Part shown: in pieces, positions 43,799 through 64,000 of the stretch
Numbering within the stretch: position 1 is the stretch's first letter
How the letters are laid out: every line of letters begins with the position of its first letter
Source: Stenocarpella maydis
Lineage: Eukaryota > Ascomycota > Sordariomycetes > Diaporthales > Diaporthaceae
Direction: 5' to 3'
DNA length: 64,000 nucleotides
Assembly (NCBI GenBank): GCA_002270565.1
Contig: NQMI01000118.1
Span: 1 to 64,000, forward strand
Translations under genes and position numbers: made by a program
Notes under the pieces: model-generated
Databases searched by the model: none
The model's input: only the letters and a program-made list of their open reading frames with translations
What the model was told of the DNA's origin: nothing

Positions 43799-44551
43799 CT
43801 AGAAGTACTTCTGGTCCTTCATGAACTCCATGCCCTGCGCAAAGTGCAGCAACTTCGCCGCGACCACATGTCTCTCCTTGGCCGAGTACTCGAGCAGGGT
43901 CTTGTACAGGTCGGCGAGCGGGACGATAACGCGCGTGATGTGCTCACCGTCCTCGAGGCGCTGCTCGGGCATGTCCTCGCCCTCTGGAAGCTGCGCCTCG
44001 ACCATGACGAGCTGCATGTTGGCGCTGCTCATGCCCGGGTCGGCCGCCTGGGGCGGGCTCACGCTCAGGACCCTCGAGACCTCGTAGCCCGTCTCCTCGT
44101 GGAACTCACGCACCGCAGCGGCCTCGGCCTCCTCGCCGGCGTCGACCAGCCCCGCCGGCCACTCGACCGTGTAGGCGTCGAGCGGGGGCCGGTACTGGAT
44201 GACCAGGACGGTGGAGGCGGGCCTGGTGGCCCTCTGGGAGGGCGGGGGCAGCAGGATGTTGCCAATGGCGACGGCGTCGACGCCGGCCTTGTCGGAGCGG
44301 GTCTTGCGCGCGGCGACCTCCCACGTGCGCGGCTTGCCGGTCTGGTCGGTGTACGAGATCTTCTTGAGGGTGATCCACCTGGCCTCGGTAATGGGCAGGT
44401 CGTCGACTGAGGTGACGACGGGCTCCTGGGTCTTGGTCGTCATGGTGAAAAGGCGGGTGGGCGGGGCCGGGGCGGAGAGGGTGCTGCTGAGTTGATAGAG
44501 GCGCCTGGTTGCGGTGGACGCGAGAGACGAAGGGCGAAGGCGGAGGGGCAT
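43799..44551 (-). CDS. Nudix hydrolase, ADP-ribose/ADP-sugar pyrophosphatase (YSA1/NUDT5-like)
   Basis: The Nudix box GLVDAGEEAEAAAVREF then HEETGY fits GX5EX7REUXEEXGU at residues 134-156 of the 250-residue form. Upstream WEVAARKT and VLVIQYRPPLDAYTVEWPAG match ADP-sugar diphosphatases, which split ADP-ribose to AMP and ribose 5-phosphate. Start choice: the ATG at 44443 (CACCATGAC, strong context) gives a 214-residue cytosolic form close to the usual family length. The ATG at 44551 adds an Arg/Ser-rich leader without acidic residues that looks like a mitochondrial presequence. A still longer frame opens at 44725. I give 44551 as outer limit; both forms may be made. Confidence 0.85.
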   Translation of the reverse strand: MPLRLRPSSLASTATRRLYQLSSTLSAPAPPTRLFTMTTKTQEPVVTSVDDLPITEARWITLKKISYTDQTGKPRTWEVAARKTRSDKAGVDAVAIGNILLPPPSQRATRPASTVLVIQYRPPLDAYTVEWPAGLVDAGEEAEAAAVREFHEETGYEVSRVLSVSPPQAADPGMSSANMQLVMVEAQLPEGEDMPEQRLEDGEHITRVIVPLADLYKTLLEYSAKERHVVAAKLLHFAQGMEFMKDQKYF

Positions 44552-45257
44552 CAACAGTTTGAGAGCAGATTTGTTGCGCAGGGATGTTGGTTTGATTGAA
44601 ATGAGTAGGTGGTGGGATTTGTGCGGCTTCAATTGTCGAGAATGGAAGGTGTGCGTGAGGATTGAAGAGGTGTTGTTTGATGTTGTGATGCGATGCGTCG
44701 GTTGGAAGTTGGAAGAGAAGATCAAGTGCTAACGGAGAATCAACGACGTACACTGCGACGAAACGGTTATCGCGACGGTTATCGCGACGGGTAACAGTGA
44801 CGTTGACGGTGACAGCATTGATTTGACCTTGAGCTGGAGCTACCCCGCCAACCCCGCAATCATGATCCTCATGGCATTTACTTTGGGGTCAAAGCTTCAA
44901 GCAGCTCCGTCTGCCCTCACTTGGTTCTGGCAGTTGGTGACTTGAGCATCGTAAGCTTGTCTCAGATGTGATGGCCTCTCGAGATGTCTTCATGCAGAGC
45001 ACCAACTGGGGTTCATACATCGCCACACCGTGGACAATTGTTTCCACATTGAATGCAATCACTCGTGATCACCATCAATAGGCCTCAGCTTCGCCTCAGA
45101 CACATCACAGCAAGACAGATCGATTTGATCAGCATTGTTTCCTTTATGAACATGCTCTCATCATTTCCTGGTATCCTAACTAGTTATATAGGAAACTCCT
45201 TCTCTCAGTGCATCCTCACGAAATGCTTAGGCACGTACATGCACGCACGCACGACAT
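44552..45257. other. Intergenic stretch between Nudix and dehydrogenase genes
   Basis: Promoter side of the Nudix gene and 3' side of the dehydrogenase. Contains a perfect tandem pair of GGTTATCGCGAC at about 44766-44789. No gene recognised. Confidence 0.5.
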
Positions 45258-51446: not shown

Positions 51447-51654
51447 AAACGGCCAGCCGTCCGGTTCTGTTTTTAGGAACCTTATTTCTTATCCGAGCCT
51501 GTTTTATGGAGCCTTGTTTCTTATCTCTTATTTCTTTATATAAGCTATAGGGGTAGATCTGATAATCCTTTAAGCTCTATATCCACTTTTTTTATACCCG
51601 GGATATATTATTTACATTCCCTATATAACTATAGTTAAGGATATTCTTAAAATA

Positions 51655-51960
51655 TAAGGTTACTTTCCCTCCTATAAATTTCCCTCTTATAGATTTCCTT
51701 TAGTAGATTTCCCTCTAGTAGATTTCCCTCTAGTAGATTTCCCTCTAGTAGATTTCCCTCTAGTAGGTTTCCCTTTCCTAGTAGATTTCTATCATATAGA
51801 TTCCCCTCCTAGTATATTCCTTTCCTATATTTCCCTTCTATAGATTTATCTTAGTAGATTTCCCTTTAGTAAAGTTTCCCTTGCCCAGTAGATCTCCTCC
51901 TAATAGATTTTCCTCTAGTAGATCTCCCTCCCATAGATCTTCTAATAGATTCCTTCCCGG
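51655..51960 (+). repeat. Degenerate minisatellite, unit about TAGATTTCCCTC(TAG)
   Basis: Runs of TAGATTTCCCTC recur every ~15 bp, best kept at 51710-51775 (about five near-perfect units TAGTAGATTTCCCTC) and degenerating on both sides. A weaker set continues near 52105-52140. Confidence 0.75.
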
Positions 51961-52188
51961 TAGATTTTCCTCCCCCTCCCTAAGACGGATTTCTTACTCA
52001 CTGCTAACGAAGTGTGCCTCTCTGCTAAAAGACATTAATACTAAGTCCTGCTAACTAATTGTTCTTAGCAGTATATAACCTCTGTACTGTTATACTCCCT
52101 TTACCTCCTAGTAGATTCTTTCCTAGTAGATTTCCCTCCTACCTTAATAAACTTCTCTTTCTTAATATATTTCCTTCTAATAGAATTC

Positions 52189-52680
52189 TGTAATGATCAC
52201 ACCAAACCTTTATGGGGTTCAGTAGGTAAACTGTAGGGTTTATATTAGCAGAGCAGCATAGAGGTAATACTTAACTAAGTTGCAGTATACAAAAACACTA
52301 TTCGCGAAGAGAGTATAATCAGAAGCTATAAGGCTATCTAATTAATAGGACTAAATACTTAGATTAACAACTAAAGAGTCTATTTTATAGAAGCTATCTA
52401 TAGTAGTAATAACCATATCCTGATATATTCTAACTCTTTATCTATCCCTAATAATAGATCATATGAATTGCTTATTAATTTGCATAGTTTAGCCTTATAG
52501 TCAGCTAGATCATTCATCAGTCTTATTAGTTCACCCTAGTTAGTAGGTCCCTAACCCTAACCCTAATCATCTAGTGCATTACTATTAACTTAGGCAGGGA
52601 AATATTCCTGGGTCTCTAATGTGGCTGCCTGGGGTTGTCTTCTACAGTAGTTAGCAGCTAATAGGTGCATATTTATAATA
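52189..52680 (-). repeat. LTR of the chromovirus, left copy (3' LTR in element orientation)
   Basis: Begins TGTAATGATCAC and is colinear over about 410 bp with 58693-59104. Shared blocks are GTTTATA, GACTAAATACTT, AAAGAGTCTATT, CATTCATCAGTC and GGTTGTCTTCT. It differs by a ~78 bp extra segment (about 52547-52625) that carries three CCCTAA repeats. Many CA/TA and TG/TA changes separate the copies. Confidence 0.8.
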
Positions 52681-55600
52681 CTATCTCCATTCTTGATTTC
52701 TTTATCACTAAATGTATTTTTATAAGTATTCTAAATTTATCTATATTTTTATTTATACCTTTCCTAATCCATTATATTGGGCAGGGTTATAAAATCCGGC
52801 TTTACAAAGTCATTTTTTATTGACAAATATAAGATTGCTCTTCTTTCCACTATTACTTTAAAAGGCAGTATCATCCTTATGTCCTGTTTGTATTATGAGG
52901 AGTATAATCTTGGTAAGGACTGCTGAGTTACTAATTTAGAGTCTACTTATTACTAGACTAATATTTATCTTAATTTATTGACTTATAATGTTTAGGGCCT
53001 TACCCCTAGCCAACTGAATAAAGTCACTATAGCATACCATTAGTTCGAGGAGGAGCTGAAGACTATAGAGGAGAGGGCTTAATAGCTAGATAAGAAGATC
53101 TTACAGCTCTATAAGTAGAAGCAGATATAATATGAGAAAATAATATATACAATTCATTAGAGCATTAATAATATAAAGGAATTAGAGCATATAGAAAAGA
53201 AAGAGGCTAAAGCTAAGTAAAGGCAAATTGCTAAGGAATCTGCTAAGGTTGTTAGGTAAGGCTCTATTGAGGAGGCTGGTAATATATTGGTATAGGAGGC
53301 TTAGCTATATTCTAAGGGTAAGGTTAGTATTTTCAACTAAAATTCATTAGTCAATAAAAGTATTAGTTAGTCTGAAATTATAGGTATTAGTAATAATGAG
53401 GTTGTACCTATAGGTAGCTCATTAGGTACTTAAAATCTATTAATAAGAAGGGAAGTTTTTATATTATCTTGTTTAACTAGTTATATAGTATTTATTTATT
53501 TTCATTCTCTTTAACTAGTTACTATTAGGGCAACTCTTTTAGTATAATTAACATTTAGGGTATTAGCTTAAGAGGAGTGACTAGTATTATTGAGTTTTCC
53601 TAAGGGTGTGACTAGTTATAGTTGCTAGTTATTAGTACCATTACTAGTCTTCTATTAGTTATTCCTATTATTTTAGCTATATTAAGAACTAGGGTTTATT
53701 ATATAGCTTCATTATAATATTTTATTATAGCTTGCTATATATAGGGCCTTTAGCTGCTTTTCTAGCTTCTAGGGACTATTTTATAGTGCTTTATGTATAA
53801 TACTACTGTAGTATATTATAGCAGTAGGTTAAATTCACTACTAGCTCCTATGTGTTTTCACTAGAGTTATAGACTTTCCATTTAATAAGGTATTCTATTA
53901 TTCCTTAGTATTATTTTAAATCTATATTTATCTCTACTTTATATTCTTTATTATATTGATTAAGGATTTTAATTTATATTTCAAGTTTTATATTCTAAGG
54001 TACTGAGTCGAATGGTAAAATATAAAAAACTAGGTGCTATTTTATTCCTTAAGGTAATAAAAGTTTATAATTAATATCTGATAGTTTTTCTAAAATCCTA
54101 AAAGGGCTGATTTTCTTATAGTTAAGTTTATTACTAAGTTACTTAATTTCAATATTTTAATATATAAGATAAACTTTATCTCCCTTCTTAAGTATTAATC
54201 CCTTAATTCCTTTCTAGTCTATATATTCTATTATTTATTTCTATATCAAAGAAATGTCTTTCTAAATATCTTGTTAAATTTATCTAATTTTTATTGCTTT
54301 TCATTCTATTAATTCTACCAGTATAGTATCTAGTAATAATTTATAGTATGTCTAAGGCTTATATTTATAAAGTGTCAAGAAAGGTAACTATTTAGTTATA
54401 TTAGAGGTTATACTATTGTAGGCGAACTATACTAGTAGTAGTAACTTAACCTAATTATCCTGTAATTAGTTAATATAGTATTAAAGGTATTATTCCATAA
54501 TTTAGTTAATTTATTCCATTTATCTATTTATTTATAAATATAATATTATTCAGAGCTTATATTTTGTTTTAAGTTATTTTATTAGTAACCTCTAGAAGTT
54601 TAATATAAAGAGCTTATATTTATTTAAGATAATTTTATATAGCGTTATATAAATACTTATAATAANAGTTGCTATAATACCTTAATAGCTATGTTCTAAT
54701 ACTTTATATATTTTTTAGAATAACTAATTTTATTTATCTAAATCTATAGGGGTGCTTTAGGTTTAGAAGTTAACTATAATTATAGTATTAAGTTCTTAGT
54801 TAAGGATAAGGCTTCTATGTTCCTAAGTCTTAAATACTATTTATTCTATAGGTGAATCTTTATCCTAATAGTTAGATCTTCTACTAAGTATACTTACTCT
54901 AGCATTCCTAACTTTATTTATATAAATAACCTTAATATTAAATTAAAATTAGAACTTTATATATCTAATTTATGATTTATTAAAAGTTTTAGTTATTATA
55001 AAAGTTATAAGACTCTTATAATTTATATAAAGCTTAATCTATTTTTTGCTCTAATAAGGTAGTACTAATATTCCTAAAATATATATACTATCATTCTAAA
55101 TTCCTTATCTAGTATAGTATATTCAGTTTCTAGTTTTTTTAACTTTTTACTAAAGTTTATAATAATATATATTTTGCTTTAATTATCTTTTTAAGTAAGT
55201 TTTCTACCTATAGTATTATTCAAGATATTTATATATATTTTGAATTCTTTTTTACGGTTTGCTTTTTCTAATATAAGGTCTTTTATAACTTTATCTTTAA
55301 GTATTCAAAAACCTTATTATTCCATTTTTATCTATCAAAATATAAGATCCTTCATTATAAGATCTATATAGGGTTTTATAATATTACTATGTTATATAAT
55401 AAACTGCTTATAAAAGTTAATATATTTAAGAAATGCTCTGATATCTCTAGTATTAATTAGTATTAGCTATTCCTTAATTACTTCAATTTACTTTCTTATA
55501 TCTTAATCTTTCTTAATTTAATTATATATCTAAGGCAGTTAACCTTTTAAAAGTACTACTTATATTTCTTTAATTTTATAAGAAGGTTTATATCTTGAAG

Positions 55601-58600
55601 CTTCTATAGTACTTACTTAATATATTCCTTATAATCTTTAAGAGTCTTAAAGAAGATGAAAATATTATTAAGATAGGTAATAATAAAGATATTTAGGTAT
55701 TTATATAAATTTTAGTTAATTATTTCTGAAATAAAGGTAGTATATTAGTTAATTTGAAAGGTATAATCATTATTTTATAATATCCATAATATATTCTAAA
55801 TAGTATCTTTCATTCTTCTCCTTCTTTAATTTGGATAAGGTTATATTTATACTTTAGGTTAAGTATTGTAAACTATTTTACTCCTTTGAGTTAATCTTAG
55901 CGTTTTTTAATAAAAAGAAGGAAGTATTGGTTTTTAATTATAATATTATTAACTTATTAATAATTAATATATAAGTATAATTAATATATAAGTATAATTA
56001 ATATATAAGTATAATTAATATATAAGCATAATTAATATATAAGTATAATGTATAATTCTTCTTAAGTATAAAGAAGATTAGGTATCATATTGGTAATTAT
56101 AAGGATCTAATAAACCTTTTTTTGAGGTTCTCATTAAGGTATTTCCTAATTGCCTTAAGTTATTCCTTATTAAGTTTATAAATAGGTTTAAATTATAGTA
56201 TAATTCCTTGTTTTAAGGGTATCTTATAATCTCATTATGTATATTATATCATAAAGGTACCTATTTATTTAGCAGACAGCTGGAAGACAAAGATATTAAT
56301 AATCTTTTAAGTAATACTATATTAAGTCTTTCTTAAAATATTTTCTTGAATTTATAATATTCTTTTAGTATTTATATTAGTCTATTTATATTTGTTTCTG
56401 GTCTTTCTTCTCTAAAGTAGATGAGGTATTCCTATATCTACTACTAGTATATAGTATATTAACTGGTTGGTTAGGGCTTCTAAGGGTTAGTTTGCAGCAG
56501 ACTACTATTTTGCTTCTAGGAGTAATGATCTCTTGATTAAATTTAGCCTTTCTATAAGGTGCTTAAAGGGTTTAATCTTTCTCTATTCTCCTTAAGCTAG
56601 GTCTCTTGCCTACTTATAAAGGTATTTATAGGTTTATTTAAGTAAATTATCTGCTTGCTATTCTTAGTAATATAACTCCTTCTTTTACTATTAATTATAA
56701 GCTTTCTTTAATATATATTATTATTCTAAAAGATCTAGCTAATAGTCTAATTAATTCAGGAGTTTGTAATACATAGTTATAAAAGTTTTAAGATTAGTTT
56801 ATAATATATTATATTATAATATCTAGAGTTATAGAAGTAATATATCTTTAGAGTAAGTTAAGTAGACAATTAGTTTCGATATTAATTATTTTATTTCTAT
56901 ATCCTACTTCTATACCTTCTATAATCTTAAGTTTATAGAGTTCTTCCTTCTAATGCTATAAGATTTAATCTCTATTAATAATTCTTAATAATATAAAGTT
57001 GCTCCAAGCGTTACTATTTAATAATATGTTATATATTTTTCTATTAATTTCTGCTTTTAAATTAATATATATATAGCTTTTATAAGTTCCATATAGGGAC
57101 TGGTGGGCTATAATTAACTATTATCCTTCTATAGGCAATCATTATCTTTTCCCTATTCTTATTATTCAAGCATCAAGTATTACTATTGCTAGTTGCATCA
57201 TCATTCCATCTCTTCATGCTAGAGCAAGAGCTTCTTATTAGGATTTTTACATTTATTAGTATCTTATATATGGTCTTTATTATTTCCTTAGGCATTATTT
57301 ATAGTGCCTAAGTAGTCTAAGTTAGTATTATTTATTATTGTATCATATAATAGTCCTTATCTTCCCAGTACTAATTATCTTTCTTATTAAAGTTATTTAG
57401 GGAACTATCTAGAGGCTTCTTTTTCTAAAAGGTATAGTAAGTACTAGTTATTGAAGCAAGAGGTCTAGTTAAGGGTTCTATACTCCAGGCTAGCATATAC
57501 TTCTTTCTTAGGAATAATTAATAAGTTATCCGGATCTTTAGGCTTATTCTTATTAAGATATATTAGATATTCTATATAAAGATTAGGTTAATAAATATAA
57601 GGTATCTTACCTTCTAAGTATACTAGGTATTTCTTATTAAATAAATAGCTATATTATTTAGGCTATTCCCAATATATAGTTATATTAACCTATTATTATC
57701 CTTCTAGAATACGTCTTCATGATTATTTTCTAAGTTAATAGTATTCCTTAGAGAAGTATCCTAGCTTTCTATAATTATAGTATTTTTTTAACTATTATTA
57801 AAGTATCATTATACTGCATTAAGTTCTATAAATCCTAAATAGATATTATAAGTAGTTCCTTATTATCATTATTAATTATTATAGAAGTTGCCTTTATAGT
57901 AGTACTTTTTCCATTATTATATTAATATTAGGGCTTCTATTAGTTTCTACGATTCTTATATTATTACTCTTATTATTATTTCAATAATTAATTGTTAATG
58001 CATATAGCTATAGCAATATATCTTACAAGTTCCTTAGGTCTATCTGCTTTAGAATGCTTATCCTTTATATTCTCTTTAAGTCTTTTATAGAATTAGCTTA
58101 TAAGTACTTTATGACTCTAACTAATATAGGTAGTAAGTTATTTAAAATCGGTAGTATATTTAGAAGTTAAGCACTACTATTTAGGTTATATAAGCTATTA
58201 TTTAGTACTTTATTTTTCATTTAGATTACTAATAATATCATTTAAGGCTTACTTAAAGTTATTATATTTTTTAAATATAGCTTTAGTTTTATTATTTTAA
58301 TTCTTTTTATTATTCTTTGAATAGTTCTTAAAAGTAGGTTTAAACTAAGTAAGAGTATTTTCCTTAAGCTAATATTTAGTAAAATAATCTTATCATAATT
58401 AGTTCTAAACTAAAGTTTACAATACTTAAAGTAGATATAATACTAAGTAAGGAATCCCTAGAGGGTTTCCTTATCTCCCTTATAGGAGCTGAGGTTATCT
58501 ATTTTATAAGCCTTAGCTTATTAAATTATGGAGAGATAATTAATTTCCTCTTAAAGGGCTTTAATTTATAGGGCTATGTCTTAAGTACTTATGCCCTAGG

Positions 58601-58692
58601 CCTATCTATTATTAAAGGAGATAGTTAATATTATATCTTTATATTACTTGATTAGTTACACATATAGCTATTCTAAATAAGAATTATTAAAA
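52681..58692 (-). mobile_element. Internal region of a Ty3/Gypsy chromovirus-type retrotransposon, RIP-inactivated
   Basis: Read on the minus strand (5' to 3' from high to low coordinates). RT motif PFKLTN...FQ lies at about 55770-55715. The RT active-site region reads YLNN at about 55690-55652, where active enzymes have two Asp. An integrase C-terminal segment KKGDKVYLIY...ISPF lies at about 54190-54090. A chromodomain-like YLIKWKVYNSSENT lies at about 53910-53848, followed by a TAG. The order RT, integrase, chromodomain defines a chromodomain Gypsy element. Stops occur in every frame; nothing can be expressed. The part from 53040 to 53340 may hold another decayed insert. Confidence 0.8.
55960..56048 (+). 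repeat. Tandem repeat, 17-bp unit
   Basis: About five copies of AATTAATATATAAGTAT, nearly identical (one copy has GCAT), inside the decayed pol region. Its regularity stands out against the diverged surroundings, so it expanded after most of the decay. Confidence 0.8.
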
Positions 58693-59104
58693 TATAATAA
58701 TTATACTAAACCTTTGTTGGGTTTAGTAAGTAACCTATAGGGTTTATACTAATAGAGTAGTATAAAGATAATACTGAACTAAATTTATAATATATAAAGA
58801 TACTATTTATAAAGACGGTATAATTAGAAGCTATAAGGTTATTTAGTTAATAGGACTAAATACTTTAATTAATAAATAAAGAGTCTATTCTATAGAAGAT
58901 ATCTATATTAGTAATAATTATATCCTTATATATTGTAACTCTTTATCCATCCCTGGTGGTGGAATATACAAACCGCTTATTAATTTATATAGTTCACCCT
59001 TATAGTCAGCTGGACCATTCATCAGTCCTATCGGTCCACCCTAGTTAGTCGCCTAGGGTTGTCTTCTGCGGTAGTCAGCAGCCAATGGGTGCGTGTTCAT
59101 AACA
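58693..59104 (-). repeat. LTR of the chromovirus, right copy (5' LTR in element orientation)
   Basis: 412 bp, colinear with 52189-52680 and ending TTCATAACA (TG...CA termini on the minus strand: TGTTATGAA...). Its last ~150 bp are less AT-rich than the rest, so decay is uneven. No target-site duplication is obvious. Confidence 0.8.
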
Positions 59105-59139
59105 TTTATCTATAGATATATTTTTAATAAGGGCTTATG

Positions 59140-60180
59140 TTCAACTTTAAGCTGCTTTATTAGTAACTTTTAGAAGTTTAATATAAAGAGCTTATCTCTA
59201 TCTAAGATTATTTTATATAGTATTTATAATTCCTTATAATGATTTATAAGAATATATAAGTCCTTCTGCTATACTATCTTTCTTATAAAGCATAAAGTAT
59301 ATATACTTACTTAGTCTATAGACTATTACTAGAATGCTATTATGTAGTACTTTAGTTAAGAGTTTTTATAAGAGCAATAGCTTAATGACAAAATTTAGAT
59401 TAATGAATAATTATATAACTATTACTATTAATAAAGGCTTTAATAATCAATAAGGCTTATATCTTACTATATTATTCTTATTATAAGAGTTATACTTACT
59501 AATAATCTTTTTAATTTTTTCCTAAAGTTAGGAATCTAGTAGTTCCTTTAAATGCTCTTAATAGTGGCTATTATACTCTAGTATCTATAACCTAGTACTT
59601 TATATATTTCCCTAACTAAGTTATTTTATTCTATTATATTTATAAGTGTCTCTTTAAGTTAGTAGTTAATTCTAAGGGTTATATTAAATTCTTAGTTAAG
59701 GATAATGCTTTTATCCTTCTAGGGCTTAAATATTATTTATTCTATAAGTAAATTTATATTTTAATAATAGGTTTTTTACTAAGCATATTTACTCTAGTAT
59801 TCCTAACTCTATCTATATAGATAACCTTCATGTTAAACTATAATAAGAACTCAATATATCTAACTTATTATTTATTAAGTACCTTAGTTATTATAAAAGG
59901 TATAAGATTCTTATAATTTATATAGAGCTTAATGTACTACTTAGCTCTAATAAAGTAGTATTACTATTTCTAAAATAAATATTATTATTATGAATTCTTT
60001 ATTTAGTATAATATATCTTTTCTTTAGGCTACTAAATTTCTTAATAAAGTTTATAATAATATAGGTTCTTTCATAATTATTCTTTTAGGTAAGTTCTATA
60101 TTTATAGTATTATTTAAGGTATTTATATAAACTTTAAATTCCTTTTCCAGTTCTACTTCTGTAGGTATAGGGTTCTGAGG
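59140..60180 (-). mobile_element. Fragment of a second copy of the same chromovirus pol region
   Basis: Sequence from about 59140 matches about 54580-55260 of the internal region. Shared examples are AGAAGTTTAATATAAAGAGC at 59168 and 54597, and CTAACTCTATCTATAT against CTAACTTTATTTATAT further on. It abuts the right LTR, so two copies were nested or tandem. Confidence 0.65.
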
Positions 60181-61014
60181 AGAGAAATAAAATATTAAAC
60201 TTAAGTACTAATGTAAGAAAAGTTCTTTAATATAAATATAATAATTATCTAGTAACTTATTCCTTAATATAATATAAAGTAGGGCTATACTTTATAAAAA
60301 AGTAAGGTATATAGTTATTACTTTAAAATGAGGGGTATATAGGAATAATTAAAAAATAAAAAATAATAAGTTAGTTTAAAGGTTTTAAGAGGGGTTAAAT
60401 CTATATTCTTTATATTTATAAGATAAATAAAGTCGCTTATATATAAACATTATATTATAAATTCTTAAGTTATATTGGAAAACTGATTTTAATTCGCTAA
60501 ATAATGATTTATAAATAATTTTCAAGATTAAGGCTATTAAGATTATAGGACTAAATATATATAAGGCTTATATAAACCCTTTAATAAATATATTATCTTA
60601 TTAGCCTAACTAGCTTTAAAACTATTTAAAGGCTATATTATAGCTATTCTTAATTGTCTTTCTTTTTAATTATATAATTATAATGATAAATTGATAATAA
60701 TTTATAATTAACTTATATTCTTATTACTATTTAATATAAACTTTATCTTAAAGGCTATGATTAATTATAATATATTTAATTAAAATAAAATTATAAACTA
60801 ATTTAAAATATAATAGCATTTTATTTTATTTAAGGACTAAATGATATACTAAATACACTTAATATACTTAATACTAATGAATATTTAAAACGAATAGCAA
60901 AGTTTATAATTTAAAATACTAGCTTCTTTTTTTTTTTTATTTATAAAAGGATTATAATTACTGTTTAAGCATTTAAAATGAAACTAAAAATATTATTCTT
61001 TTTTATAAATAATT

Positions 61015-61049
<35 letters not shown>

Positions 61050-61349
61050 ATTAATTATAAACCTATATTTCTATATAACTTCTTTTACTAAAATATAAAA
61101 ATAAATATAAAAAAAAAAAAAAAAAAAAAATTTTTTTTTTTTTTTTTTTTTATAATTAAACTTATTAAGATTAATAAACTTTTTAATTTAACAGTTAATT
61201 AATATAAATAATAGTTATATTATATATTATTTTTATATTCTTTATTAAAAATATTTTTAATAAAAGTATAGTATAAGAATATTATTATTTAATAATTTAT
61301 TTTTTTTTTTTTTTTTTTTTTTTATTTTCTTTTACTTTTTATTAGGAAT
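60181..61349. repeat. Extremely AT-rich stretch with long A and T homopolymers
   Basis: Contains A28 at 61019-61046, a perfect A22-T21 palindrome at 61109-61151 and T24 at 61300-61323. No coding or repeat homology seen. These runs are adjacent to the U6 gene terminator. Confidence 0.75.
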
Positions 61350-61356
61350 AAAAAAA
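61350..61356 (-). terminator. RNA polymerase III terminator of the U6 gene
   Basis: Seven T residues directly after CTACCAA, the normal oligo(T) stop of Pol III and the source of the U6 3' oligo(U). Confidence 0.8.
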
Positions 61357-61382
61357 TTGGTAGCTTCTCTTTGATTGAGCGT

Positions 61383-61438
61383 CTAGGGGACAAGTTAGTT
61401 TAGGTTAAGAACTTAAATGTCCCTCTTGGTGTGCTTAC
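61383..61438 (-). other. U6 intron 3
   Basis: 56 nt, GTAAGC...CTAACTTGTCCCCTAG, with a perfect CTAAC branch point. Removal joins AAGGATGAC to ACGCTCAATC, the canonical sequence after the internal stem-loop. Confidence 0.88.
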
Positions 61439-61472
61439 GTCATCCTTAGTGCAGGGGCCATGCTAATCTTCT

Positions 61473-61530
61473 CTGCTGGGAGTCAGCATGAATCGAACTC
61501 GGACCTTTAAGAACATCGGGAACTCTGTAC
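61473..61530 (-). other. U6 intron 2, within the ACAGAGA box, with a B-box-like element
   Basis: 58 nt, GTACAG...CTGACTCCCAGCAG. Contains GAGTTCGATTC (61500-61490), matching the core GTTCGANTC of the Pol III B box. Of the tandem CAGCAG acceptors, only the distal AG gives canonical ATACAG|AGAAG; the proximal AG would leave three extra bases. Confidence 0.85.
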
Positions 61531-61551
61531 CTGTATCGTTTCAAATTGACC

Positions 61552-61603
61552 CTAACAATAATTAGTAATTGAAGTTGACCGCGCGGGCAACTAAGCCACT
61601 TAC
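61552..61603 (-). other. U6 intron 1, with an A-box-like element
   Basis: 52 nt, GTAAGT...TTGTTAG with ACTAAT branch region. Includes TGGCTTAGTTG (61598-61588), an exact fit to the Pol III A-box pattern TRGYNNARNNG. Removal joins GGGCATTT to GGTCAATTTG, as in intronless fungal U6. Confidence 0.85.
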
Positions 61604-61640
61604 AAATGCCCGAAGGCATAATGCTGGAACAAGCATTGCC

Positions 61641-61646
61641 CATATA
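61641..61646 (-). promoter_or_regulatory. TATA-like element of the U6 gene
   Basis: TATATG within GGTATATGGG, about 21-26 bp upstream of the inferred transcript start, the usual distance for the upstream TATA of U6 genes. Confidence 0.6.
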
Positions 61647-62450
61647 CCAGGTCCCACCCTACGCTATAACTTGTATGCACCCTGACTCATGTGCTGTCTA
61701 GGTTCAGTTACTTGCCTCCCTAGAAACTTGCAAAGATTTTAAAGCAGATTGGTTTGCCAATATTACCTGGATTGCTTAGTTGCAACGGCTGCCATAAGCC
61801 TTGCTACATTACCTTGTGAATGATTCTTATGAAAATTTATAACGATCCTATAAAGCCCATAATTCTGCGCAGTCCTTAATTCCCAAGACAAGTCAGCTGT
61901 TCCAAGTGTTTGCCCCTCCCCGGCGCGGCTCAAGCAAATGTCTCACTAACATTTGACCAATCACACCCAACGAACCCATCAAGTAACGCGACTGTTCGCA
62001 ATGCTTTATTCCGTTAAGACTTGCAAAGTGTTGGGGTTGGGGTATGTGTGTGGGTGCGCTTCGTGGCAGAAAGCAGTTCTCATGCATGTGCTCACAAGGA
62101 GCTTGGTCGCCGGTTGATGCTGGAAGATCAGCTGAGCTTGATCAAGCGAATGGTGATTGCGGTCTACTCGAAGTAGCGCGCAAGCTGGAGATCAGTCACC
62201 TATCGTACATCGGAAAATTTTCAAGGATCAATGCATACAGCACCCTGCCCCCCTTTGAAATATTGTAGTCCAGCGTAAGCATGCCAATATCTTGGCATTT
62301 CTTGGATGCATCAGGCTTCACGCGTTTTGATTCCTGCCTTGCGGAGCACGGCGTCCTTCAGACGGCTCCGTATTCAGAAACAGGGATTTCCGAGCGCCAC
62401 TAACGTGGCTCGAAAATGGGCTTCCGTGCGACGATACACGCCCTATAAGT
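61647..62450. other. Island of normal base composition, no gene recognised beyond U6
   Basis: About 800 bp with mixed composition between two AT-rich blocks. Short ORFs only (for example 62044-62268). It may be flanking single-copy DNA spared by RIP together with the U6 gene. Confidence 0.45.
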
Positions 62451-64000
62451 CCTAGTATATGAAATATTTCTTTTTACTAAACTTCTGAATAAAATATATA
62501 TTTAATTATTACAATACCATTCAATATTCTTTTATAACACTATAGTATTGAATGTATTATACTATATTATATTATAATATATCAAAAATATAAAAATAAT
62601 TATTAATAAATGAGACTAATTTAATAATATATATCTACTTTTTTTAATAATTCTTATCTTAGAGTTAAAATAATTTCAAATATCTAATAAAGCTTTTAAA
62701 TATAATTCAATTTAATATAGTTGACTAATAAGTAGACTGTATTAGTAAGTAGATTAATTTTTCAACTTCTATCTTCGTTGATTTAAAAATACATATTAAA
62801 AATATTTAATATATATAGAAAGAAATATATAATTTCAAAACTCATTTAAGTTTTAATTTTATCTTATAATAATATTATTATAGTTACTAATTTACTATAT
62901 AAAGAATTAAAGTCAAACATATAAATTTAATATATAACTAAATAAAAAGAAGAAAAAAGAAAAAGAAATTATTTTCTAATTTCTATACTTTACTTGATAA
63001 TTAATAATATTATTTATAAATTTAATATTATATCAATATCTTTATAAAGAATAATGTCTATATCAAAAATATATATTATATAGAGTCTTAAATAATATAT
63101 GTATATTTAAATTTATTAAGAAAACAACATATAGCCTTTAATATTTCCTAATTGTGATGATTATAGTGAAAACGGGCCAAGAGGGAGAGCAAGGGGACAA
63201 AACCTCTATACACATAAAAAGGCACACGTTCTGCTAGAGCCCTGATTAAGCAACCACCCCAAGAGGAGCGTGGAAGGCAAGAAGAGGAGCTCCTAACGTA
63301 ATAGGAGAGTTATAAGGGGAATAGAGGGTGCTAAAAAAGAGAGGCAGAAAAAGAGGGTATAAGAAATAATTTCATAGTATATATATATATATTAGATAGA
63401 TATAAATTCATAGGGTATAAAAAGATTGATTCTTTAGGATTAGAAATTTCCTAAAAGTAATATAGGAGGGCCCCTTTTTATAGTCTTAGGGGGGAGGGAT
63501 GCTAAGGCTGGTTCTCCTCTGGATTCTGAAATATACCGGTCCCCCTAGACCCTAGAATATACCCCTCTCCAAACCATTATAAAGAATGAGTAATAGTCTG
63601 CCTAAAATAACTAAAATTACTCTCTTCCTTTAATTAGATAAGCTACTTGAATTTAGCTCTATTAGACCCTTTATAGCTCCTGATTTCTAGCCTGCTTATC
63701 CCTACTCTCGTTTTATTATAGCATGCTTAGTCTATAATCCTTCTCTTTTTATTTAACTGCCTTCTTATAAGCTTAGGATTGATGGCTATTATAAATTGCT
63801 AGCATGGGAACCTAGCAATTTGCTTCCTTAGTCCCTACCTACTTGCTTGTATTTTAGTTGTGCTCCTGAATTAATATGATTCTTATTGCAGCGGGTAATG
63901 GGTAATATAGTAGTAGTATAGCTAGAATAGAGGATAGAGATAATAATAATGACCTTGAGATTCTTGATTACTTAGGGATTATCCCATCTATATTTATATT
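62451..64000. repeat. AT-rich terminal stretch, probably decayed repeats
   Basis: 62451-63150 is again almost pure A/T. 63150-63370 is purine-rich and less AT-rich, followed by a TA microsatellite at about 63378-63392. From 63590 to the end it is AT-rich with stops in all frames. I recognise no element. Confidence 0.5.

Follow-up and report, generated by a model that had tools for sequence, protein, structure and literature searches.

The question raised by this locus was whether one short stretch of fungal DNA holds a U6 snRNA gene split by three spliceosomal introns, and whether such a gene could still supply U6. The window (the whole 64-kb stretch of DNA analysed) was searched on both strands by splice-aware alignment to the Rfam U6 consensus, in which GT–AG skips of 40 to 90 nt were allowed and no positions were supplied, and a U6 gene was placed on the minus strand at 61619–61352. 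Removal of three GT–AG segments gave a spliced length of 102 nt, matched 62/63 upper-case (well-conserved) consensus columns, and left the conserved U6 blocks in order: 5′ stem-loop, ACAGAGA, AGC, internal stem-loop, and 3′ U run. The first-pass annotation, which gave no strand, had proposed GT–AG segments of 52, 58, and 56 nt, whose excision would leave a canonical U6; exactly these lengths were returned by the unguided alignment, and the canonical form was recovered with them. The features were as follows (window coordinates, evidence in brackets):

61641–61646, minus strand: TATA-like TATATG, starting 27 nt upstream of the first base of the RNA (sequence)
61352–61619, minus strand: U6 snRNA gene, exons plus three introns (alignment score 95.2; 62/63 columns)
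61604–61619, minus strand: exon 1, 5′ stem-loop AUGCC-UUCG-GGCAU plus UU (alignment; hairpin predicted)
61552–61603, minus strand: intron 1, 52 nt, GTAAGT...TAG, branch ACTAAT, holding an A-box match (alignment; site uninterrupted in C167, C301, and C68)
61588–61598, minus strand: A-box match TGGCTTAGTTG within intron 1, starting 21 nt downstream of the first base of the RNA (pattern match)
61531–61551, minus strand: exon 2, GGTCAATTTGAAACGATACAG, with its 3′ end inside the ACAGAGA box (alignment)
61473–61530, minus strand: intron 2, 58 nt, GTACAG...CAGCAG (tandem acceptor), branch GCTGAC, holding a B-box match (alignment)
61490–61500, minus strand: B-box match GAGTTCGATTC within intron 2 (pattern match)
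61439–61472, minus strand: exon 3, AGAAGATTAGC...AAGGATGAC, with the rest of ACAGAGA, AGC triad, U4-pairing region, and internal stem-loop (alignment; co-fold with U4)
61383–61438, minus strand: intron 3, 56 nt, GTAAGC...TAG, branch ACTAAC (alignment; site uninterrupted in C68, C167, and C301)
61352–61382, minus strand: exon 4, U6 3′ end (alignment)
61350–61356, minus strand: T7 run, Pol III-type terminator (sequence)

The alignment score of 95.2 fell to 57.8 when introns were forbidden in the same 600-nt region; 300 dinucleotide shuffles of this region with introns allowed gave a mean of 12.4 (s.d. 4.4) and a maximum of 27.8, and the next-best place in the window on either strand had a splice-aware score of 28.8. 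The Rfam U6 model gave a partial match at 61408–61478 (exon 3 into intron 3), with 43.3 bits against a gathering cut-off of 44; this value refers to unspliced DNA, and the splice-aware alignment stands in for the covariance model on the spliced form. Rfam includes group I and group II intron families. The unspliced Rfam scan of the whole window returned no family of any kind at gathering level, hence no group I/II match, and ARAGORN found no tRNA in the window. The sub-gathering unspliced score is what a chance resemblance, an assembly error, or a self-splicing intron type could appeal to, but any of these is exceedingly improbable in view of the distance between 95.2 and the shuffle maximum, the small size of the introns (only 52–58 nt), the three branch sites within range, and the uninterrupted sites in the paralogues (see below).

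All three introns (3/3) had GT...AG ends together with a motif fitting RCTRAY within 6–36 nt, the fungal branch motif and its distance from the intron 3′ end as given in an excerpt of PMC5832005; the alignment had required GT–AG ends but not the branch motif. The motifs were ACTAAT (intron 1), GCTGAC (intron 2), and ACTAAC (intron 3), located 10, 10, and 12 nt from the intron ends, respectively, and the branch sequence that had been noted for each intron was thus present. Compared to GTRWGT, the donor GTAAGT of intron 1 fitted, GTAAGC of intron 3 had one mismatch, and GTACAG of intron 2 had three; this weak donor (3/6 positions off) counts against intron 2, and the donor GTAGTA of the intron in the paralogue C167 was likewise three positions off. 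At the tandem acceptor CAGCAG of intron 2, the second AG alone restored ACAGAGA, and the donor GT was likewise the sole choice.

The same assembly (53.5 Mb, 312 contigs; possibly incomplete) was searched for other U6 copies, the C-labels denoting places in it, with C21 as the window copy. Rfam U6 matched at least seven places at E ≤ 10, two of them above the cut-off (C1 with 54.2 bits and C167 with 53.9 bits) and the weakest being C67 (15.6 bits); at the same threshold, 10 of 14 control genomes also gave U6 matches, none over the gathering cut-off. The genome U6 search scored the best 47 of 2976 candidates alone, and copy counts are therefore lower bounds. Four of these places read as follows: (i) C167 had one 56-nt intron at GAT/TAGC and matched 60/63 columns after its removal, but departed from the consensus where the window copy fitted it (GAAUCC for GAAACG and AGAGAGGAU for AGAGAAGAU); (ii) C301 had one 48-nt intron at the C167 site and matched 59/63 columns, having lost one base of ACAGAGA (the C) and some of U4 stem II; (iii) C68 had one 57-nt intron at the C167 site, with its 5′ 27 nt lying about 2.4 kb upstream of its 3′ part and several U6 bases missing at the break (C68:20000–29900), this 5′ half being recovered twice, by the splice-aware search and by a pattern search; and (iv) C67 was a badly decayed U6 in which one block was still identical to a portion of exon 3 and in which visual inspection showed remnants similar to intron 3 and to the beginning of exon 4. 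The exons of C68 differed from those of the window copy at 2/51 positions from TAGC to CUACC, and its 5′ 27 nt matched. The window copy itself was distinguished by CACUAAGG and by its exon 4 sequence.

The sites of introns 1 and 3 were uninterrupted in C68, C167, and C301, whose single intron lay 7 nt from the intron 2 site. The strongest evidence comes from these paralogues: because they are uninterrupted there, the window segments are to be taken as insertions, not as parts of the RNA. The view of the first-pass annotation that U6 is split here by three spliceosomal introns is supported both by the fit of the sequence and by these uninterrupted sites, and we infer from it that the transcript is spliced.

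The first-pass annotation had also pointed to an intronless U6 elsewhere in the genome as something to look for. Such a copy was present (C1:1422323–1422421, plus strand), but it matched 53/63 columns and was not an intact canonical one: it kept ACAGAGA and AGC and had changes in the AGCAUGG and GGAUGAC blocks. C263 (C263:267709–267805, minus strand) was a decayed relative of C1 with 49/63 columns. The C263 copy was flanked by a 12-nt direct repeat, TTATTTCTATAT, as though it had been retroposed.

The assembly was also searched by pattern. AGCATGGCCCCTGCACYAAGGATGAC with up to three mismatches occurred at five places (C21, C68, C167, C301, and C1; reversed control, 0), and the 5′ half without intron 1 was found, with up to three mismatches, in C167 and C68 alone. 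The uninterrupted canonical core GATACAGAGAAGATTAGC had no match in the assembly at zero or one mismatch; with two or three mismatches it occurred at 22 places (reversed control, 15), one being C1 at three mismatches. Seven of the remaining 21 places were scored and look like chance (splice-aware scores ≤27.6); for C258 and C261, two places with two mismatches to the core, the best splice-aware scores were 16.2 and 27.6, respectively. C45, one of five places with up to two mismatches to GATTAGCATGGCCCCTGC (reversed control, 2), was likewise set down to chance, with a best splice-aware score of 27.0. When long introns were allowed, splice-aware alignment of C68, C263, and C67 yielded multi-intron paths that were meaningless. 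Scans of viral and prokaryote contigs with the ascomycete U6 core gave no match.

The divergence among the U6 copies raised the possibility of a mixed-species assembly. The single Prp8 locus argues against it: the Prp8 matches of the genome search, five within 4 kb, fell in one place, which speaks for a single species. The nearest PDB entry to this Prp8 was 9l5r (1215.9 bits; the next entry, 1000.3), presumably from Chaetomium thermophilum. The locus (C111:785500–795400) was interrupted by a long open stretch with a reading frame of 1,073 codons, a putative Prp8 intein. In the window itself, a NUDIX protein at 43799–44725 (minus strand) had Diaporthe helianthi as its nearest named relative (82% over 81% of the query), followed by Cytospora and Cryphonectria (75–79%); from these similarities the fungus appears to be an ascomycete of the Diaporthales, related to Diaporthe.

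The kinship of the introns was addressed by pairwise alignment of six U6 introns (15 pairs, 2000 shuffles each). Intron 2 and the C167 intron, whose sites are 7 nt apart in the RNA, had AGGTCC..GAGTTC.A.TCAT..CTGAC in common, and 1/2000 shuffles scored as high. The values for intron 2 with the C68 intron (43/2000) and for intron 1 with the C301 intron (61/2000) are no more than nominal, and the C167 and C301 introns, which occupy the same site, were without similarity (1458/2000). This suggests that intron 2 and the C167 intron come from one intron that slid by 7 nt; sliding is suggested, not shown, because the best match consists partly of the B box and the branch site. The start of intron 2 repeated TACAG of the preceding exon (GATACAG/GTACAGAG), and its end was CAGCAG (window 61473–61537, minus strand); exon-like sequence at both ends is possibly a trace of intron origin or of sliding. 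In a search for introner-like repeats, the 341-nt gene matched itself alone at E ≤ 0.001, a weak test that missed paralogues with 26 exact shared bases.

The U4-pairing region of the window copy was predicted to co-fold with the 5′ part of the genome's own U4 as stems I and II, at −36.4 kcal/mol against a shuffle mean of −25.5, a value reached by 0/100 shuffles. C167 (−38.7 kcal/mol) and C1 (−36.9 kcal/mol) each beat all 100 shuffles as well, and C301 was equalled or beaten by 4/100. Introns were also found in U2, of which two of three copies were split (C246:290720–290912 and C89:359878–360074, both minus strand). These GT–AG introns of 65 nt (C246) and 72 nt (C89) contained a GCTAAC motif and lay at the same site just 5′ of GGCTTAGATCAAG, which we take to be the U2/U6 helix I region; the U2 consensus scores were 86.6 with and 66.4 without intron removal for the first copy and 84.2 and 66.2 for the second. 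The third copy (C243:219288–219485, minus strand) was uninterrupted, scoring 74.2 either way. Two U1-like genes were noted below the Rfam cut-off (C44:118826–118990, minus strand, 38.5 bits; C301:179194–179351, plus strand, 28.8 bits), differing in their 5′ ends (ATACTTACCT in C44 and ATACTTACAT in C301).

The window U6 was flanked by TATATG at −27 and by the T7 run, which fits the Pol III U6 type (TATA-like element near −30, T-run terminator), and AT-rich elements at about −24 were present in C167 (TTAAAGTAA) and C301 (TATATTAAA). A B box (GWTCRANNC) lay on the sense strand inside intron 2 (GTTCGATTC), and further matches lay in the introns of C167 (GTTCAACTC) and C68 (GTTCGATCC); by shuffling, the chance of a B box in such introns would be 3.5%, 0.9%, and 1.7%, respectively, and the pattern occurred in 21/1820 tiles of 56 nt (window 1–51000). 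It was absent from introns 1 and 3, both U2 introns, and the C301 intron, the last having the degenerate GTCCGATCC. C167 had an additional B-box match upstream of the gene. The intronless C1 carried a match inside its RNA (GATCAAAGC), and a B box thus needs no intron. As for the A box, C167 had an exonic match (TGGTCGAATTG) 57 nt before its intronic B box. In the window copy, the exonic stretch that corresponds to this match (T/GGTCAATTTG) was cut at its start by intron 1 and misses the pattern at one position even when unsplit, and the match inside intron 1 lay 100 nt before the B box, versus 57 nt in C167; this intronic A box is only suggestive, because a match occurred in 4.9% of intron 1 shuffles and in 41/1820 tiles of 56 nt (window 1–51000).

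The promoter architecture and the U4 pairing bear on whether C167, with its one intron, supplies the cell's U6 while the window copy is well preserved but silent. C167 had an exonic A-box match followed by an intronic B-box match, paired slightly better with U4 (−38.7 vs. −36.4 kcal/mol), and reached 60/63 columns once its 56-nt intron was removed. The setting of the window copy points the same way: positions 51500–64000 contained AT-rich tracts (52000–61300: GC 0.23, TA/AT 1.36, and (CA+TG)/(AC+GT) 0.53), which are probably RIP-mutated, and the U6 gene lay just inside the border of a 1.1-kb island (61345–62450) whose composition was normal; genes between such RIP-like AT-rich tracts may be silent. 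This explanation is nevertheless unlikely, since the window copy misses only 1/63 columns and keeps the consensus at the two blocks where C167 has left it.

The upstream region of C1 had similarity to other snRNA genes: TAGAAGGCGGTGA was exact in one U4 gene, and AGGCGGTGAAAAGCCGTCCGC aligned with a U2 gene at 17/21 positions. The numbers of shuffles (of 500) reaching the C1 similarity were 0 for U4_C47, 0 for U2_C89, 5 for U2_C246, 13 for U2_C243, 250 for U4_C268, and 473 for U5. The window copy and C301 reached at best 36/500 and 35/500, respectively, and C167 reached 4/500 (U2_C89) and 11/500 (U4_C268); C1 is thus not fully separable from C167 by shuffle statistics, and it is the long exact matches that distinguish it. 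C1 had its TATA at −59, with the upstream element starting 36 nt before the TATA versus 47–49 nt in three U2/U4 genes, a spacing shorter by 11–13 nt or roughly one helical turn; a similar difference in element spacing separates U6 from U2 genes in plants. C1 ended in a T8 run, and downstream of it U2-like similarity was weak (15/500 shuffles for one U2 copy; the other two at or below the shuffle mean).

These features could make the intronless C1 the main U6 and all split copies relics. C1 exceeded the Rfam cut-off unspliced, kept ACAGAGA and AGC as well as its U4 pairing, and combined the element common to U2 and U4 genes with a B-box match inside the RNA; moreover, its relative C263 has the appearance of a retroposed copy, and C1-type RNA would then have been made at some time. 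Such a role for C1 is very unlikely all the same, given its 53/63 columns and its changed AGCAUGG and GGAUGAC blocks, and 62/63 columns are more than a split copy out of use should have retained.

The window copy is thus most probably a functional, Pol III-transcribed U6 gene with three ordinary spliceosomal introns, a reading of transcription, splicing, and promoter use from sequence. Its 62/63 columns argue for function while C301, C67, and C263 have decayed; the weak donors, a possibly chance A box, the B box of C1, the RIP-like setting, and C167 as an alternative source of U6 could argue against it. Transcription by Pol III would begin some 27 nt past the TATA-like element, run through all exons and introns, and terminate at the T7 run; the transcript would be 3′-processed and then spliced by existing spliceosomes, excision of the three introns rejoining the ACAGAGA box split by intron 2. 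This order agrees with fission yeast, where Lsm2-8 binds both intron-containing and mature U6 and splicing after 3′ processing is what the authors infer in an excerpt of PMC10484740. The introns would probably be retained partly for internal Pol III elements, namely the B box of intron 2 and perhaps the A box of intron 1.

A wider proposal is more tentative, and we regard it as possible rather than probable: internal Pol III promoter elements may have moved into removable introns, the B box in the two intact split copies (the window copy and C167), and the A box in the window copy after intron 1 had interrupted the exonic one. The introns could then not be lost without weaker transcription, C1 would have survived by its U2/U4-type upstream promoter, and the production of canonical U6, and of much of the U2, would require spliceosomes in which these RNAs are already present.

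Rhodosporidium dacryoidum U6 has four introns, Rhodotorula hasegawae is a basidiomycete, and Trichoderma reesei belongs to the same class, Sordariomycetes. An mRNA-type intron in Schizosaccharomyces U6 is said to have been described by Tani and Ohshima in 1989 and by Frendewey et al. in 1990, the latter with introns matching the B-box consensus; multi-intron fungal U6 was reportedly described by Tani and Ohshima in 1991, and an mRNA-type intron in Rhodotorula hasegawae U2 reportedly by Takahashi et al. in 1993. The window gene resembles Schizosaccharomyces U6 in having an mRNA-type intron with a B-box match inside it, but differs from that one-intron gene by three introns, an intronic A-box match, and paralogues with other intron sets; whereas the Rhodotorula hasegawae case concerns U2, in the present ascomycete genome U2 and U6 are both split. 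The multi-intron fungal U6 genes of Canzler et al. 2016, as cited in an excerpt of PMC7827515, likewise have several introns in a single gene, and a fungal U6 with at least one intron is shared with Trichoderma reesei, for which it is implied by the phrase 'U6 snRNA promoter with 1st intron' in an excerpt of PMC9518982. Because multi-intron fungal U6 and intronic U6 B boxes are already in print, the window gene is a new example, not a new phenomenon. In the literature searched, outside which the key U6-intron papers lay, no report was found in which U6 copies of a single genome carry different sets of introns or in which a U6 intron contains an A box.

The origin of U6 introns and the reason for their persistence are long-standing questions, for which this genome is unusually informative. 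It holds three U6 arrangements (three introns, one intron at another site, and none) with near-identical exons in two of them, which makes intron gain, loss, and sliding comparable, and the finding that introns and matches to internal Pol III promoter elements coincide offers a simple, testable reason for intron retention. Split U6 genes escape standard RNA-family scans, as they did here, where the window gave no Rfam match at gathering level. If the organism has no uninterrupted canonical U6, its spliceosome would depend on itself for its own catalytic RNA.
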